Below, piece by piece: positions 24 through 7,059 of a stretch of DNA of 44,939 nucleotides (position 1 is the stretch's first letter; every line of letters starts with the position of its first letter). The stretch lies in assembly GCA_026391945.1 (NCBI GenBank), contig JAPLDA010000086.1:14819-59757 (forward strand), written 5' to 3'. The translations under genes were made by a program, and so were the position numbers. Under the pieces are notes generated by a model, which was given only the letters and a program-made list of their open reading frames with translations, searched no databases and was not told the origin of the DNA. This DNA comes from Bacteroidota bacterium (lineage in GTDB: Bacteria > Bacteroidota > Bacteroidia > AKYH767-A > 2013-40CM-41-45).

Positions 24-106
24 CACCGATTCATATTCGTTGATTCCTTTTTTTAAGCCTGCATTTTTTTCTTACTATTGTGATACCATTTCCAACAAGT
101 CATCAC

Positions 107-658
107 ATGTCAAAACATCAAACCATGAGTTTCATTTCATCAGGTGTATTCTGGGGAGGAATCATCATCCTTTTCGGATTGTCCATTATCCTCCGGGAAA
201 TCTTTCATGTACACATTCCATTCGTCCGCATTATTTTCGGATGCATCCTCATCTATTGGGGAATTAAAATGATCAGCGGTGGTTTTGGAAGAAACCACTG
301 GGGAAGGAATGCCGCCGTTTTCAACGAAGCCAAAATGAATTACGACGACGCACAAAAAGAATACAACACCGTTTTCGGAAGCAGCACCATCGATCTTTTC
401 AAGATGGAGAACAAAGGCGACCGGAAAATCGAAGTGAATATCGTTTTCGGAAACTGTGCCTTGATACTGAACGACAGCATTCCCATCAAAGTGGAAATCT
501 CATCTGCTTTTGCCTCAGCCACCACGCCTGATAAAAACATGAGTGCATTGGGTAAGTCAACGTATTATACTTCCGCCTATAAAGAAAACCAGCCATATAT
601 ATTCATTGAAGCCAACGTTGTGTTTGGTAAGCTGGATATTGAGAGTAAGAAGTGGTAG
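107..658 (+). CDS. LiaF-like membrane protein (two-TM N-terminus plus cell-wall-response domain)
   Basis: Small membrane protein of about 183 residues. The N-terminal third holds two hydrophobic segments (around GGIIILFGLSIIL and IIFGCILIYWGI). The C-terminal half is a soluble beta-rich domain with repeated IVFG/VVFG motifs (NTVFGSS, NIVFGNC, NVVFGKL), as in the C-terminal domain of LiaF-type 'cell wall-active antibiotics response' proteins. That architecture suggests an envelope-stress sensor or modulator; the partner is not visible, since no histidine kinase gene lies nearby. Start codons at 80, 107 and 125 are all possible. I prefer 107 because the first nine residues of the longest form add nothing recognisable, but 125 is almost as good. 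It converges with the TerB-like gene, with only 18 bases between the stops. Confidence 0.65.
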   Translation: MSKHQTMSFISSGVFWGGIIILFGLSIILREIFHVHIPFVRIIFGCILIYWGIKMISGGFGRNHWGRNAAVFNEAKMNYDDAQKEYNTVFGSSTIDLFKMENKGDRKIEVNIVFGNCALILNDSIPIKVEISSAFASATTPDKNMSALGKSTYYTSAYKENQPYIFIEANVVFGKLDIESKKW

Positions 659-676
659 GGGCTAATCATCAAATGA

Positions 677-1063
677 TCACATCATCAAATCGTTTATTTC
701 TATTATCAGTTTTCTTTCTTCCTGCCCGATACCATTACTGGCACGTGCAGTTTTTCTGATCAGCGCCAATGCGGACTCTTTCATGGAACTGCTGATGTGA
801 TTTCCGTACTGCTGCAGGAAAAGTTTAAAAGATTCCTGTGATTTCCGGAAGGTGATGTGTTCCCTTAACGCCGTTGAAAAACTAAGGCCCGTCAGGATGA
901 TATCTTTGTATTCCGGCTTCTCATGAAAATGTTTGTGCCGGCTTATTTCATGATGAACCAAACGTTCAATCGTCCGTATTTCCTTTTCCTGTAACTTGCC
1001 ATCCGCTTTGCATATAGCATATAGAAACTTTCCAAGCTCAGAATAAAATTTCTGATAAATCAT
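677..1063 (-). CDS. TerB-like protein, paralogue 1
   Basis: A 128-residue, mostly helical cytosolic protein without signal peptide. It opens with YQKFYSELGKFLYAICKADG followed by acidic and charged helices, a pattern typical of the TerB-like (tellurite-resistance B) fold, in which a conserved Asp-rich turn (here KADGK) is thought to bind metal. The same opening occurs in the gene at 6634, so the two are paralogues. Its ATG begins three bases after the stop of the PEP synthase gene, so it is almost certainly co-transcribed and translationally coupled with it. Function is unknown; TerB-like domains often accompany stress and envelope genes. The gene is certain as a coding region, the family assignment is moderate. 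Confidence 0.7.
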   Translation of the reverse strand: MIYQKFYSELGKFLYAICKADGKLQEKEIRTIERLVHHEISRHKHFHEKPEYKDIILTGLSFSTALREHITFRKSQESFKLFLQQYGNHISSSMKESALALIRKTARASNGIGQEERKLIIEINDLMM

Positions 1064-1066
1064 TTT

Positions 1067-3502
1067 TCAGTTGTGATGAAAAGCAGGTTTTATTTTTTTG
1101 TCATCTTCCGCCTTGTTGATGTTTTCAATTCCTTTCAGCAAAGCATCGGGATTAAACGAAATGCTGTTGATGCCTTGTTCAACGAGGAAGGAAGCGAACT
1201 CCGGGAAATCACTCGGTGCCTGTCCGCATAATCCGATGGTGGTTCCCGTTTTCTTTGCCTTCCGAATAACCATTGCCATCAGTTGTTTGGCGGCATCGTT
1301 TTTCTCATCAAACAAACTGCTGATGATGCTCGAGTCACGGTCGATTCCCAGTGTGAGCTGCGTGAGATCGTTGGAGCCGATGGAAAAGCCATCAAAGTAT
1401 TTTGCAAATTCTTCCGCCAGCAAAACGTTGGAAGGAATTTCTGTCATCATGTAAATCTCCAATCCGTTCACTTTTCTTTTCAAACCGAATTGTGCCATCA
1501 GTTCCACCACTTTTTTCCCTTCTTCAACGGTCCGGCAAAAAGGAATCATCAGTTTCACATTCGTTAAACCCATTTCATTGCGCACACGTTTCATCGCTTC
1601 ACATTCGAGCCGGAAGCCTTCTTTGTATCGCGCGTTGTAATACCTCGAGGCTCCACGGAAACCGATCATCGGGTTTTCTTCCTTCGGTTCAAATTCTTTT
1701 CCGCCAACGAGGTTAGCGTATTCATTCGTTTTGAAATCACTCATCCTCACGATCACATCCTTCGGATAAAAAGCCGCAGCAATGGTCGCAACTGCCTGCG
1801 ACAACTTATCAATGAAGTATTCTTTCTTGTCAGGGTAATGATGCGTGAGCTCTTCAATTTTATTTTTAGCGTTGTCATCTTTCAGTTCATCAAACCTGAC
1901 CAAAGCCATGGGATGTATCCGGATGGCATTGCTGATGATGAATTCGAGCCGCATCAACCCGATTCCGTTGTTGGGGTAGAATGAATACCGGAAAGCTTTT
2001 TCCGGATCGCCGAGAATTAACATGACATGGGTTTTTGGCATCCTGATTTTTGAAAAATCAATATCCGTTTCTTTCCATTTTAATTTCCCTTCGTAAGCGA
2101 AACCGGTTTTTCCTTCGGCACAGGAGACCGTAATGATTTCTCCTTCTTTAATTTTTGTTGTTGCTTCATTCGTGCCTACAATGGCTGCAACGCCAAGTTC
2201 GCGTGCAACAATGGATGCGTGGCTGGTTCTTCCGCCTTTATCGGTGACGATGGCCGCCGCTTTTTTCAGGATCGGATCCCAGTCGGGATTGGTGATTTCA
2301 GTGACGAGAATTTCTCCAGGCTGAAGTTTTTCTGAGTCAGAAGGAGAATGTAAAATTCTTGCTTTCCCGGATGCGATTGAACTTCCAACAGCAATGCCTT
2401 CAGCAATCACGTTTCCTTTTTCTTTCAGCTCAAACATTTTAAAAGAGAAAAGATCTTTTGCCGAGTGAGTTGTCTCCGGTCTCGCCTGCACGATAAACAG
2501 TTCTCCGCTCAATCCGTCTTTGGCCCATTCGATATCCATCGGGTGTTGGTAATGTTGTTCAATCATCAGCGACCACTGCGCAAGCTGGTTGATCTCCTCA
2601 TCATCCAATACAAATTCATTTTGCTTGTCAGCAGGAGTCGCCACGTTCACAATGGTTTTTCCCAACTCATGATCGGTGCCTTCCGAATAAATCATCATCA
2701 TCTGTTTTGATCCTGCTTTCCTGCTGATGATTCCGTTTTTGCCATCGGTAAAAGTGGGTTTGAAAACAAAGTACTCATCAGGATTCACCGTTCCCTGCAC
2801 AACATTTTCGCCAAGTCCCCAGCTTCCTGCAATGTGGATGATGTCGCGGAAACCTGACTCGGGCTCCAGTGTAAAACAAACTCCGGAGCAGGAGCAATCG
2901 GATCGTACCATTTTTTGCACTCCGACAGATAATGCTACGCTCATGTGATCAAAGCCATGATCCTCGCGGTATTTGATAGCACGGTCGGTGAACAGCGAAG
3001 CATAACATTCATGGCAAGCCGCCAATACGGTTTCTTCACCCCTGATATGAAGGAAGGATTGATGCTGTCCGGCGAAACTGGCCGAAGGAAGGTCTTCAGC
3101 CGTGGCGCTGGATCGAACGGCTACATCAGCAATTCCGTCGTACTCAACGCATAATTTTTTATAACCTTCTTTTACCTGTGCAATGAGTTCAGCCGGCAAA
3201 GCAGCATTCAGAACGAGTTGACGGGCTTCCGCACCGACATCACGAAGATTGGAAAAACTTTTCCTGTCGAGCTTCGCCAACACTTGCTGCATCGGTTCTT
3301 TCAGCTTGTTTGAATAAATAAAATCCCAGTAGGCAAACGTAGTGGTGGCAAATCCTCCGGGTACATGGATTCCCTTCGGGAGTAGGGTGGACAGCAACTC
3401 TCCCATGGAAGCATTTTTTCCTCCTACGAGCGAAACATCTTTCATGCTCACATTTTTCAGATCCACCACGAAGGCATCTGTTTTTGCTGAATTATTTTTC
3501 AC
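1067..3502 (-). CDS. ppsA: Phosphoenolpyruvate synthase (pyruvate, water dikinase)
   Basis: Cytosolic enzyme converting pyruvate, ATP and water to phosphoenolpyruvate, AMP and phosphate, the entry to gluconeogenesis. The 811 residues show the usual order. An N-terminal ATP-grasp-like nucleotide-binding domain contains VGGKNASMGEL and RSSATAEDLPSASFAGQ near residues 27-145. The central swivelling phosphohistidine domain contains GGRTSHAS, with the catalytic His at 428. A C-terminal PEP/pyruvate-binding TIM barrel contains SIGSNDLTQL and a GLCGQAPSD segment with the catalytic Cys. Length is normal. Residues 201-209 (SDCSCSGVC) carry three cysteines, which is richer than I expect here. It follows the bacterioferritin gene by 51 bases and is followed three bases later by the TerB-like gene, so it is the third gene of a four-gene minus-strand unit. 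Confidence 0.95.
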   Translation of the reverse strand: MKNNSAKTDAFVVDLKNVSMKDVSLVGGKNASMGELLSTLLPKGIHVPGGFATTTFAYWDFIYSNKLKEPMQQVLAKLDRKSFSNLRDVGAEARQLVLNAALPAELIAQVKEGYKKLCVEYDGIADVAVRSSATAEDLPSASFAGQHQSFLHIRGEETVLAACHECYASLFTDRAIKYREDHGFDHMSVALSVGVQKMVRSDCSCSGVCFTLEPESGFRDIIHIAGSWGLGENVVQGTVNPDEYFVFKPTFTDGKNGIISRKAGSKQMMMIYSEGTDHELGKTIVNVATPADKQNEFVLDDEEINQLAQWSLMIEQHYQHPMDIEWAKDGLSGELFIVQARPETTHSAKDLFSFKMFELKEKGNVIAEGIAVGSSIASGKARILHSPSDSEKLQPGEILVTEITNPDWDPILKKAAAIVTDKGGRTSHASIVARELGVAAIVGTNEATTKIKEGEIITVSCAEGKTGFAYEGKLKWKETDIDFSKIRMPKTHVMLILGDPEKAFRYSFYPNNGIGLMRLEFIISNAIRIHPMALVRFDELKDDNAKNKIEELTHHYPDKKEYFIDKLSQAVATIAAAFYPKDVIVRMSDFKTNEYANLVGGKEFEPKEENPMIGFRGASRYYNARYKEGFRLECEAMKRVRNEMGLTNVKLMIPFCRTVEEGKKVVELMAQFGLKRKVNGLEIYMMTEIPSNVLLAEEFAKYFDGFSIGSNDLTQLTLGIDRDSSIISSLFDEKNDAAKQLMAMVIRKAKKTGTTIGLCGQAPSDFPEFASFLVEQGINSISFNPDALLKGIENINKAEDDKKIKPAFHHN

Positions 3503-3553: not shown

Positions 3554-4015
3554 CTATACATCGATTGAAGTGCCTGATAATGTTTTGTCCCTCTCTTCAA
3601 TGCTTTTTAACTCTTTGTCAAATTGATTGAAATGTTTTTCTTCGTCTGCTTTCAGCTCTTCAAATAATTTTTTTGATAACATGTCTGAACAGGAAGAACA
3701 TTCATCGGCGGAGTTTTTATATTGTTTCATTCCGTCTTCTTCCATGGCCCGGGCAATGCGGAGCATTTCGTTCACCGACTTGGTATTTCTAATGACAAGG
3801 TTTATGTTCATGTTGATGTCTCCTTTGAGGGCGAGTGCCCGTTCAGAAATTTTTTCGACATGTCCCATCTCTGCAATCGCAGTTCGTTTAAAAAGTTCCG
3901 CCAGCAAATTCAAACCCTGGTCGTTGCAGTGAAAATGAAAATACATATACTGGTTTACAGCTGTCAACTCTTCGGCTACTGCTTTGTTTAATAAGGTGAT
4001 GCTTTTCTCATTCAT
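3554..4015 (-). CDS. bfr: Bacterioferritin-type iron storage protein
   Basis: Four-helix-bundle ferritin-like protein of about 153 residues that should oxidise and store iron in a 24-subunit shell. All six expected ferroxidase ligands are visible: Glu in AEELTAVNQY, Glu and His in AEMGHVEK, Glu in AMEEDGMKQY, and Glu and His in ADEEKHFNQF. The residue between the Glu and His of the second motif is Met, in the position of the haem-ligating Met52 of E. coli Bfr, which supports bacterioferritin over plain ferritin. I chose the ATG at 4015 because it places the first ligand Glu near residue 16, as in E. coli. Starts at 4042 and 4060 are also open, but the latter would overlap the upstream SDR gene. 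It sits 29 bases downstream of that gene and 51 upstream of ppsA. Confidence 0.88.
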   Translation of the reverse strand: MNEKSITLLNKAVAEELTAVNQYMYFHFHCNDQGLNLLAELFKRTAIAEMGHVEKISERALALKGDINMNINLVIRNTKSVNEMLRIARAMEEDGMKQYKNSADECSSCSDMLSKKLFEELKADEEKHFNQFDKELKSIEERDKTLSGTSIDV

Positions 4016-4044
4016 GATTTTAAGTTTTATGGATTCATTCATTT

Positions 4045-4800
4045 TTATTGAGCGATCCATCCGCCATCAACAGCAAGAGCGGCACCGGTTACGAATGAAG
4101 CTGCGTCGGAGCATAACCAAACGACTGCTTCAGCCACTTCACCGGGTTCTCCCAATCTGCCGACAGGTTCCAGGTTCTCAAATTGTTTTTCAATTTCTTT
4201 ATTTTTTCCTGTGAAGCGATCGATCATCGGAGTTTTGATCACACCCGGACAAACGGAATTCACCCTGATTCCGGTTTTCGCATATTCAAGAGCGGCGGTT
4301 TTGGTAAGCCCGATGAGTCCGTGCTTGGAAGCAGTATAAGCGGGAATGTTCTGGAAGCCCACCAAACCCGCCACGGAAGAGGTGTTCACGATTGAACCCT
4401 TTTTCTGTTTCAACAGGTGAGGGATTTCATACTTCATGCACAGCCATGCACCTTTCAGGTTTACGCTCAGCACATGATCCCAGTTTTCCGTTGTGCATTC
4501 ATGAGTGATGGCCGAATGTCCCTCGATGCCGGCATTGTTGAATGCAAAATCAATCCTGCCAAATGCAGTGATCGCTTTTTCCACCATCATCTGTACTTCT
4601 GTTTCATTGGCCACATCACACTTCACAAAAATGGCATCACCGCCCATTGACTTTATTGCATTCATGGTTTCATCGTCTTCTATGCAGTCAGCAACTACCA
4701 CTTTGGCGCCTTTGGCTGCGAACAGAATCGCGGTGGCGCGGCCAATTCCAAAACTGCCACCGGTAACAATAGCCACACGATTTTTAAATACCTGGTCCAT
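4045..4800 (-). CDS. Short-chain dehydrogenase/reductase (classical SDR)
   Basis: A 251-residue NAD(P)-dependent oxidoreductase with every landmark of classical SDRs: the cofactor-binding TGGSFGIG near residue 14, NNAG near 88, the catalytic Ser in NTSSVAG, the catalytic YTASK, and the PG turn after the active site (CPGVIKTPM). It ends with the usual VDGGW. An Asp at the end of beta-strand 2 (VVVADC) favours NAD(H) over NADP(H). The substrate cannot be read from sequence; glucose 1-dehydrogenase-like and dihydrodiol dehydrogenase-like enzymes share this pattern. It is the first gene of the minus-strand unit SDR > bfr > ppsA > TerB-like. A degenerate -7 box (TAACTTTA, minus strand, 4825-4832) lies about 25 bases upstream. 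Confidence 0.9.
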   Translation of the reverse strand: MDQVFKNRVAIVTGGSFGIGRATAILFAAKGAKVVVADCIEDDETMNAIKSMGGDAIFVKCDVANETEVQMMVEKAITAFGRIDFAFNNAGIEGHSAITHECTTENWDHVLSVNLKGAWLCMKYEIPHLLKQKKGSIVNTSSVAGLVGFQNIPAYTASKHGLIGLTKTAALEYAKTGIRVNSVCPGVIKTPMIDRFTGKNKEIEKQFENLEPVGRLGEPGEVAEAVVWLCSDAASFVTGAALAVDGGWIAQ

Positions 4801-4926: not shown

Positions 4927-6501
4927 TCATTTGTCCAGTTGATCTTTTTTTCGCGGCCTTGATTCCTGCTTGGGTTCGGGTTGTCGTTGTGGATTTTGCC
5001 TGATCTCTCTGGAAGGTTTCGGCTGCTGATGCATGTTTGAGCGTGGCGTTGGCTGATTTTCTTTCGGTGTTCTGATTTGCGGATTTTCCCGTGGCTGCTC
5101 TGTTGGCCGCGTTCCGGGATTTTTTATGGGCGACGGATTCATCGGGCGCGGAGTTTCATTATTCTTACCGGGTTGTGTATTTGACGGAGTGATGTTCCTG
5201 GTTTTTATCGGCTGGCTTGTTGCCGGCTGCAGATGCGGATACTCGTTTGCATGTTGCTGCAAAAAATCATTCCTGTTCACCGGAGCTTTCGGGTTGTTGC
5301 GGATATGTTCATCGTAGTTCACCTGGAACTGACCATATTCTTTAATCCTGTCGGGACGTTGCGCATCATCCTTCAAAAATCCATGCGGCAGATTATTCCT
5401 GTTGTCGCGCACCCATGAATGAACGACCACGGTGTTGGAAACGACCGCTCTTCGCGGGCCGTGATAATAATGCAGGTAAGAATTGGTGATATGAGGGTAA
5501 TGATAAAAATTAGTATGATGACTGAAATGCCAGTGAAGAAAAAACCAGGACGGCGGACCGATCCAGACGAAGTCATCCTGCCAGTAATAAAATCCCCAAT
5601 GATACCAGTGCGGGTAAGGGTACCAGTACGGTTCCGCATGCCACCATGGATACCCGCACCAATACGGGTACGGCATGTACACATAATGTTCAACGACAAC
5701 TGGATTTACGTTCCGGTAATCGTTTTCAGCATAGCCGTTTTCTTTTGCATATTCTTCGGCTGATTGTTTCAGTTCTTTCTTCGCATCCGGATCTTTGCTG
5801 ATGGTTTCTTTCCATTCTGCCAGGTCTTTCGCTTTTTGCTGAGCGAGTTCAAGGTTTAATTCAGAAAAATAGTTCATCACCATTTCCGGGTTTCTCTTGT
5901 ACAAATCACCGAGTTGAACCGTCATGTGCATGTTGTTGTTGAGAATGGTAATCACTTCCGGCGTCCTGATGATTTCCCGGAAAGCGGATTGTGTTTCCGG
6001 AGAATATTCACGGATGATATTTTCAAAGGAACTGTTGAACTGCGTATTAACTTTTTCAATGTTTTCCAAAAGCTCAAAATGATTGGTTGAATAGTTCACA
6101 GCATCGTCATGAATTTCCTTCGGATAATCTTTCAGGATCGTTTCTGTTTCAGAAGAATTCTTTTTCCCTCCGGCAACCAACTGGCCGGTTAATCCCTGAT
6201 AACGTGTCAGGTTCCATATTTTCTGCTGTTCCTCTTTTGAATAGGAGGAAAGGATGGTTTTAAACTGTTCGTTGCTGTGTTTCTGAATGTCATTCAGCCT
6301 GACAATTCCTTCCGGGTGAGAAGAAATTTCGAAACATGTTTTCCGGTTATTTTCCGGATAGGCAGCCAGTGCATTCACATCGGCACTGTCATACCTGGCC
6401 AGTTGTTCCATCCGGGTTCTATTGTCGTTCTGTGCCTGTGCGGAAATCAAAAAGGAGATCGAAACAAATAAACCTGTAAATAAAAAGGCTTTCGTTTTCA
6501 T
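4927..6501 (-). CDS. Exported protein with Trp/Tyr/His/Phe-rich core and Pro/Asn/Gln/Arg-rich tail
   Basis: I do not recognise a named family. From the ATG at 6501 the protein has 524 residues: a signal peptide (KAFLFTGLFVSISFLISAQAQ), a charged helical region to about residue 265, then a segment (272-347) in which 44 of 76 residues are Tyr, Trp, His or Phe, including ten Trp. A low-complexity basic tail rich in Pro, Asn, Gln and Arg runs from about 400 to the end. The ORF can be extended 21 codons upstream, but those residues precede the signal peptide and are unlikely to be translated. The aromatic and His density could serve metal binding, carbohydrate stacking or aggregation; none is proven. 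It is divergent from the TerB-like paralogue at 6634 and lies 126 bases before the SDR gene on the same strand. Confidence 0.75.
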   Translation of the reverse strand: MKTKAFLFTGLFVSISFLISAQAQNDNRTRMEQLARYDSADVNALAAYPENNRKTCFEISSHPEGIVRLNDIQKHSNEQFKTILSSYSKEEQQKIWNLTRYQGLTGQLVAGGKKNSSETETILKDYPKEIHDDAVNYSTNHFELLENIEKVNTQFNSSFENIIREYSPETQSAFREIIRTPEVITILNNNMHMTVQLGDLYKRNPEMVMNYFSELNLELAQQKAKDLAEWKETISKDPDAKKELKQSAEEYAKENGYAENDYRNVNPVVVEHYVYMPYPYWCGYPWWHAEPYWYPYPHWYHWGFYYWQDDFVWIGPPSWFFLHWHFSHHTNFYHYPHITNSYLHYYHGPRRAVVSNTVVVHSWVRDNRNNLPHGFLKDDAQRPDRIKEYGQFQVNYDEHIRNNPKAPVNRNDFLQQHANEYPHLQPATSQPIKTRNITPSNTQPGKNNETPRPMNPSPIKNPGTRPTEQPRENPQIRTPKENQPTPRSNMHQQPKPSREIRQNPQRQPEPKQESRPRKKDQLDK

Positions 6502-6633
6502 GATTGGTATTTTAGGTTTGTAAAGGTCTGTTCGGGTTAAACGTGTGATAATGATAGCGCTCAAATTTCTTCCTGACTTTTATCAGTTTCAGGAGATGGG
6601 TTGTAAGGTATCTTGCTTCCAAAATTTGACATC

Positions 6634-7059
6634 ATGCTCTACAAACAATTTTATTCTGAGTTGGGAAAATTACTCTATGCAGTGGCCGACGTGGATGGCG
6701 TGATTACACAGGAAGAAAAAAGTGCATTAAAAAAACTGATCCGCAAAGAGCTCGTGCCGGTAGAAAAAAGCACCGATGAATTCGGCACCGATGCCGCCTT
6801 CTATGCGGAATTTGAATTTGACATTCTGGAAGATGCAAAAGCATCTCCACAGGCGGCCTTTAATTCTTTTATCACCTTTGTGGAAAACCATCATTCAGCA
6901 TTCGATCACCGACTGAGAAACGCTACGCTGAAAATTGTGAATGAACTGGCGGAAGCTTTTCATAAAAACAGTGAGAACGAAAAAGTGCTGATTGAAAAAC
7001 TGAAGGCAAAACTTGAGGCGCTGCCGGTGAGGGAGAAAAAATTGAAAATTGAAAATTGA
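6634..7059 (+). CDS. TerB-like protein, paralogue 2
   Basis: A 141-residue soluble helical protein opening with LYKQFYSELGKLLYAVADVDG, clearly related to the protein at 677-1063. An acidic DVDGVITQEEK turn after the first helix resembles the metal-binding loop of TerB-like folds. The middle (about 50-75) differs from paralogue 1. An ATG at 6613 would add seven residues, but the paralogue aligns from the ATG at 6634. The last codons (KLKIEN) are written in a tandem GAAAATT heptamer that runs through the stop codon, so the C-terminal end may vary between strains. No promoter box is clear upstream. The gene is divergent from the aromatic-rich exported protein. Confidence 0.7.
   Translation: MLYKQFYSELGKLLYAVADVDGVITQEEKSALKKLIRKELVPVEKSTDEFGTDAAFYAEFEFDILEDAKASPQAAFNSFITFVENHHSAFDHRLRNATLKIVNELAEAFHKNSENEKVLIEKLKAKLEALPVREKKLKIEN

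Follow-up and report, generated by a model that had tools for sequence, protein, structure and literature searches.

A Bacteroidota protein with a dense aromatic segment very probably represents a branch of the DUF3300 (YacH) superfamily

DUF3300 (Pfam PF11737) is a protein family of unknown function that spans from E. coli to rhizobia and counts E. coli YacH among its members. Excerpts of one report describe DUF3300 and DUF2950 as signal-peptide-bearing proteins that were induced in two RNA-seq studies, are universally co-localised and have no characterised member, the DUF2950 gene lying directly downstream of DUF3300 in rhizobia (PMC4653623). E. coli yacH is given as CpxR-regulated in the excerpted text of another report, whose abstract states that yacH contributes to cationic peptide resistance and whose text, pointing the opposite way, has the deletion strain outperforming the wild type after protamine (PMC9600279). 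A third, likewise in excerpt, records that a strain with a rob mutation expresses less yacH when stressed with butanol (PMC7537768). No published function for DUF3300 was found in the excerpts of the literature that mentions it, and no study of a Bacteroidota branch was recognised from titles and abstracts.

Here we compare this family with a gene in the window, by which we mean the whole analysed stretch of 44,939 nucleotides from a Bacteroidota bacterium (assembly GCA_026391945.1, contig JAPLDA010000086.1, positions 14,819 to 59,757). The minus strand of window positions 4927-6501 holds an open reading frame of 524 aa, with its ATG at 6501 and its stop at 4927-4929, and stops interrupt the plus strand over the same interval. 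The gene and its parts, in window coordinates, are the following:

4927..6501, minus strand: coding sequence of the Bacteroidota DUF3300-like protein, 524 aa (open frame and full-length relatives)
6433..6501, minus strand: putative signal peptide, residues 1-23, approximate (read from the sequence)
6160..6378, minus strand: DUF3300 helical unit copy 1, residues 42-114 (profile matches to DUF3300 and to copy 2; shuffle control for the DUF3300 match; helical in the model)
5848..6138, minus strand: DUF3300 helical unit copy 2, residues 122-218 (profile matches; helical in the model)
5461..5688, minus strand: aromatic domain, residues 272-347 (composition, conservation in 37 sequences, aromatic-only profile)
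5593..5670, minus strand: Trp ladder, residues 278-303, with W281, W287, W293 and W299 (periodicity analysis)
4930..5361, minus strand: variable basic Pro/Asn/Gln/Arg-rich tail, residues 381-524 (the least conserved part, with a mean top-residue frequency of 0.258)

An earlier, sequence-only reading had described a secreted protein in which a helical domain, a dense aromatic segment and a basic Pro/Asn/Gln/Arg-rich tail follow one another, and this three-part anatomy is borne out. By eye, the N-terminus, MKTKAFLFTGLFVSISFLISAQAQ, has the appearance of a type I signal peptide. Residues 272-347 contain 16 Tyr, 10 Trp, 12 His and 6 Phe, confirming the count of 44 aromatic residues in 76, and are not exceeded in density by any other 76-residue stretch of the protein; the tail holds 24 Pro, 17 Gln, 16 Asn, 14 Arg and 11 Lys in 140 residues (385-524). 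For comparison, related neighbourhoods contain 366 other ORFs of 120 aa or longer, in which the aromatic count per 76 residues peaks at 29 with a median of 14; in 42 relatives the count ranges from 26 to 45 with a median of 37 (L011, which covers the same region as L066, was omitted as a duplicate here and excluded from the neighbourhood counts below). The unusual composition of the window protein is real. Because relatives at 28-46% amino-acid identity keep both frame and motif, and because the aromatic part is the best conserved, the segment is translated, a point on which the earlier reading had allowed for the opposite.

That reading recognised no family, and none is obvious from the sequence alone. 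The window protein scores 21.4 bits (E 1.9e-4) against Pfam DUF3300, below the 25-bit gathering cut-off; otherwise its Pfam scan gave only a chance-level match to DUF4337, and NCBIfam gave no match. For profile comparisons, the DUF3300 set consisted of E. coli K-12 yacH and ten DUF3300 loci from plasmids. The profile of the Bacteroidia family matches that of DUF3300 with a probability of 97 and an E of 1e-10, and the strongest match aligns window residues 172-218 with YacH 135-181 over 47 columns. Copy 1 alone (residues 42-114) matches the DUF3300 profile at E 2.4e-7, and the two copies within the window family match each other at E 1.2e-13 (profile-profile). As a control, 0 of 100 column shuffles did as well in each of four comparisons, all of which took in the helical part, and reversed profiles gave noise. 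When ten relatives were scanned singly, four exceeded the Pfam cut-off (33.7, 32.9, 30.3 and 25.8 bits) with matches covering 117-177 profile positions; one of the remaining six reached 17.9 bits, and five had no DUF3300 match at E up to 0.01. In an earlier scan, two of ten profile-member sequences, one of them the window protein, matched DUF3300 at E up to 0.1, and a PF11737 scan of relatives matched 1 of 41, at 19.6 bits and thus below the cut-off. The proteobacterial DUF3300 profile matched 0 of 395 genomes of the class, the window's own genome being among the unmatched.

Given the profile matches, the shuffle controls and the four relatives above the cut-off, we assign the window family to a Bacteroidota branch of the DUF3300 (YacH) superfamily in which the helical unit is doubled. 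We regard this family assignment as strong and the membership as very probable, and it accounts for what had been the oddest protein of the window. A match to a characterised domain, which the sequence-only reading had considered, is thereby found in part: the whole protein falls in a named family, but no DUF3300 member has been characterised, and the aromatic segment matches no profile significantly.

The likeness to DUF3300 proteins (E. coli K-12 YacH and those of Cupriavidus, Paraburkholderia, Caballeronia, Rhizobium and Rhodobacter) extends over the general layout. Both groups have a signal peptide, a helical unit bearing a YPD...YP...FP...LGD pattern and then, in the same order, a Tyr/Pro-rich stretch, a Gly-containing hydrophobic stretch and a low-complexity basic tail that ends in Arg or Lys. 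The Bacteroidota branch differs in having the helical unit twice, in being patchy within Bacteroidota, and in its aromatic stretch, which is a long Trp ladder with invariant Trp, Gly and Pro. This aromatic region and the Tyr/Pro region of DUF3300 occupy the same place in the protein but do not match each other significantly, 66 of 100 shuffles scoring as well as the real comparison; Pfam matches of single relatives to DUF3300 do extend into the Tyr/Pro-rich region. DUF2950, the partner of DUF3300 in Proteobacteria, follows it in 4 of 4 fetched loci with gene annotation around the gene, whereas DUF2950 was found in 0 of 61 relatives, a search in which control genomes gave no match either.

The window protein does not stand alone. 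Full-length relatives turned up by protein search in 8 of the 61 genomes near the window's own (own genome counted), and a profile built from ten family sequences found them in 30 of 395 genomes and 15 of 197 genera of the class, in 5 of 42 genomes of the order and in 3 of 296 genomes of a phylum-wide draw. Public contigs titled Bacteroidetes supplied three more loci, and some genomes carry up to three copies of the family. Neither plasmids, searched with the window protein by tblastn, nor 26 pattern matches in viral contigs yielded a relative.

To count conservation, 47 loci were collapsed to 37 distinct sequences, in which the commonest residue has a mean frequency of 0.585 over residues 266-350, compared with 0.49 and 0.47 for the helical halves and 0.26 for the tail. 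The conserved residues of the aromatic domain are Trp, Gly, Pro and Tyr: W281, G283, P285, W293, G303 and P317 are invariant in 37 of 37 sequences, and Y278, W287, W299 and W324 are identical in 36, so that half of the window protein's ten Trp are essentially invariant and the other half are not. Tyr is kept at Y278 in 36, at Y335 and Y346 in 34, and at Y284 and Y305 in 33 of the 37. A profile of the aromatic part alone retrieves exactly the same 30 of 395 class genomes as the whole protein, and none of the 395 has the aromatic domain without the helical part. The conservation, together with the identical set of genomes, shows that this is a position-constrained domain specific to this architecture and no compositional accident.

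The Trp residues of this domain are regularly placed. W281, W287, W293 and W299 are spaced by six residues, and over columns 276-305, a range picked after viewing the data and with one gapped column passed over, 164 of 186 Trp share one phase of three. Within that phase Pro occupies 0 of 370 cells and 86% of the cells are aromatic. Column permutation gives P values of 0.004 for period 3 and 0.001 for period 6 of Trp. Period 2 of all aromatics is likewise significant (P 0.004), and since the range was also chosen post hoc, the periodicity favours neither an extended strand nor a polyproline-II helix.

The C-terminal ends are basic in both branches. The last residue is Lys or Arg in 32 of the 37 Bacteroidia sequences, and two basic residues come last in 24, often behind a Gly-rich stretch; among the 366 background ORFs, 78 end in Lys or Arg and 22 in two basic residues. 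All 11 DUF3300 proteins end in Arg and 10 of them in two basic residues, the plasmid-borne ones (L050-L059) having an Arg-Arg end in nine of ten cases and Lys-Arg in the tenth, mostly after long Gly-rich tails. The window protein itself ends in DQLDK, with a single basic residue last. We give no P value for these ends because the related sequences are not independent. Judged from the sequences, the shared basic ends would support common ancestry of the Bacteroidia and DUF3300 proteins, and a role in retention is possible. A separate tail motif, [YF]HxxxW, is present in 18 of the 37 sequences (for example L022 and L016), with a consensus like AQxYHxxxWxQxQP, and is absent from the window protein; the pattern matched 22 times in the last 75 residues, and four matches within the aromatic part were discarded.

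Structure prediction, which the sequence-only reading had proposed, was informative for the helical part and much less so for the aromatic one. An AlphaFold2 model built from a four-sequence alignment shows a helical N-terminal part with pLDDT mostly 70-93 (the model's first 190 residues) and an aromatic part mostly below 50; modelled alone, the aromatic part has a pLDDT of 41. Searching the PDB by sequence returned chance-level rows only, and no solved DUF3300 structure was found. Fold searches gave no match at E up to 0.001, and the best VIA-align fold match has a Z of 3.6 over 53 residues with an rmsd of 2.7; both results are compatible with a known fold.

Around the gene, the window contains the following neighbours:

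4045..4800, minus strand: short-chain dehydrogenase (SDR), 126 bp downstream of the DUF3300-like gene, with a 70% identical counterpart near the L074 relative
3554..4060, minus strand: ferritin-like protein, on the same strand as the DUF3300-like gene
1067..3502, minus strand: PPDK/PEP-synthase-like enzyme, with a 66% identical counterpart near the L074 relative
677..1063, minus strand: TerB-like protein, without a Pfam match alone but similar to the TerB-like gene at 6613
6613..7059, plus strand: TerB-like protein, divergent neighbour (TerB 23.5 bits, cut-off 24.4)

The two TerB-like genes (677-1063 and 6613-7059) flank the cluster on opposite sides, and their products are 42.5% identical over 40 residues. 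Neither they nor the window protein matched the anti-phage defence models of PADLOC at E up to 0.1 (0 matches). The sequence-only reading had asked whether homologues always sit beside TerB-like genes; such neighbours occur at only 2 of 42 loci (the window and L066), so TerB adjacency is not a rule. At the same 42 loci we counted Hsp20 at 4, BON at 3, USP at 4 and PPDK at 2, and a ferritin-like gene and NRAMP at 1 each. Enrichment was evaluated for 40 loci (L009 and L010, on short contigs and with no genome counts, were excluded), the expected numbers being Pfam counts per genome, with each BON domain taken as one gene, and the observed ones coming from blastp with chosen representatives. On these terms, Hsp20 is found at 4 loci against 0.19 genes expected (P 4e-5) and BON at 3 against 0.25 (P 0.002), while USP, with 1.8 genes expected, is not enriched (P 0.11). 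Together the three are present at 9 of 40 loci against 2.25 genes expected (P 5e-4), and 31 of 40 neighbourhoods have none of them. At three loci a co-directional USP gene overlaps the family gene or sits within 13 bp of it. L074, from another family of the class, shares with the window both the co-directional SDR (70% identity) and the PPDK gene (66%). The family thus has genes in common with stress clusters of Hsp20, BON, USP and PEP-synthase, at 9 of 40 loci for the first three and 2 of 42 for PPDK, but differs from a stress-cluster operon in that the association is loose and an operon is not obligatory. The genomic context is stress-like but loose.

The best explanation of these results as a whole is that the window protein is an exported, probably non-enzymatic envelope stress protein that docks through its aromatic domain, a reading to which we give a probability of roughly 45%. 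Its parts differ in strength: we lean towards a stress-linked envelope role for this Bacteroidota DUF3300-like protein, and hold docking by the aromatic domain more tentatively. The CpxR regulation of E. coli yacH and the Hsp20 and BON enrichment speak for the reading as a whole; the 31 neighbourhoods lacking Hsp20, BON and USP and the low-confidence model of the aromatic part speak against it. We infer a mechanism composed of a periplasmic or surface location, docking, polyanion contact and induction under stress. After export, the helical part, with its two head-to-tail DUF3300 units, would form a folded body, and the aromatic domain would display a regular Trp/Tyr stripe, with Trp every six residues and an aromatic residue at nearly every third position, an arrangement that a polyproline-II helix or an extended strand would produce. 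This stripe could dock on an envelope surface, a glycan or a lipid interface, while the basic tail, with two Lys/Arg last in most relatives, may touch polyanions, for instance LPS or surface polysaccharide. The cell would call on this gene during a stress response, alongside Hsp20, BON, universal-stress, ferritin-like and PEP-synthase genes. Linking DUF3300 to Bacteroidota through a doubled unit, a conserved aromatic domain and stress-gene neighbours yields a testable hypothesis and the exact residues to mutate. A bolder version, which we consider fairly unlikely, is that the aromatic segment is a new small type of domain, an invariant Trp-Gly-Tyr-Pro ladder whose specific job is docking to the envelope, while the basic C-terminal end common to both branches would be a retention or targeting feature. 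If true, DUF3300 proteins would be envelope staples linked to stress, a class so far overlooked and widespread across Bacteroidota and Proteobacteria.

Two other roles seem to us improbable, and to the same degree. The tyrosines might be oxidatively cross-linked, or the aromatic segment might self-assemble, into an insoluble surface layer or sheath, and the high conservation of several Tyr (Y278, Y335, Y346, Y284 and Y305) and a low-complexity basic tail suited to assembly would agree with such a structural matrix. However, only Trp, Gly and Pro are strictly invariant, their fixed positions suggest a defined fold, and there is no peroxidase or oxidase gene among the recurrent neighbours. Alternatively, the aromatic, Gly-containing segment might insert into the inner or outer membrane and alter permeability, so that losing the protein would change cationic-peptide sensitivity, as reported for E. 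coli yacH. The pattern GFYYGPGGxIVFFGMPSxYF is hydrophobic, and in the excerpted text of PMC9600279 the yacH deletion strain outlived the wild type under protamine; yet the Trp/Pro/Tyr part has too much Pro and His for a membrane helix, and the YacH data bear on a different aromatic region.

Metal or haem binding, raised in the sequence-only reading, is very unlikely. Chelation of Cu, Ni, Zn or haem would suit a segment with 12 His and 16 Tyr within 76 residues, the ferritin-like neighbour in the window, and the NRAMP-like gene found beside the L060 relative and, by eye, upstream on the window's own contig. But for 11 of the 12 His, no more than 10 of the 37 relatives have His at the same position; H337 alone (25 of 37) is kept by a majority, and the 37 share no conserved Cys. 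This lack of conserved histidines makes a metal site unlikely, and the ferritin-like and NRAMP genes are each confined to a single one of the 42 loci. Least probable of all is that the DUF3300 likeness is a convergence of short helical patterns in an unrelated new family: the sub-cut-off score of the window protein and a strongest profile match only 47 columns long would fit, but the DUF3300 matches come from two parts independently and in order, scores drop far lower once profiles are shuffled or reversed, and four relatives score above the curated cut-off across 117-177 profile positions.

A few further features of the surroundings were seen. Just upstream of the window, by eye, lies a MlaE/MlaF/MlaD-like lipid transport operon with the NRAMP-like gene (L099 12188-14753), followed at window positions 80-658 by a LiaF-like envelope gene (Pfam); genes of a similar Mla type (clusters 4, 16 and 17) are again present close to the relatives in L066 and L087. 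L074 and L066 have the same upstream gene pair (clusters 14 and 15), by eye glycosyltransferase- and glycoside phosphorylase-like, which perhaps belongs to the same stress cluster. In L080 (G381), two copies of the family lie less than 10 kb apart, with Hsp20 and BON genes in between.
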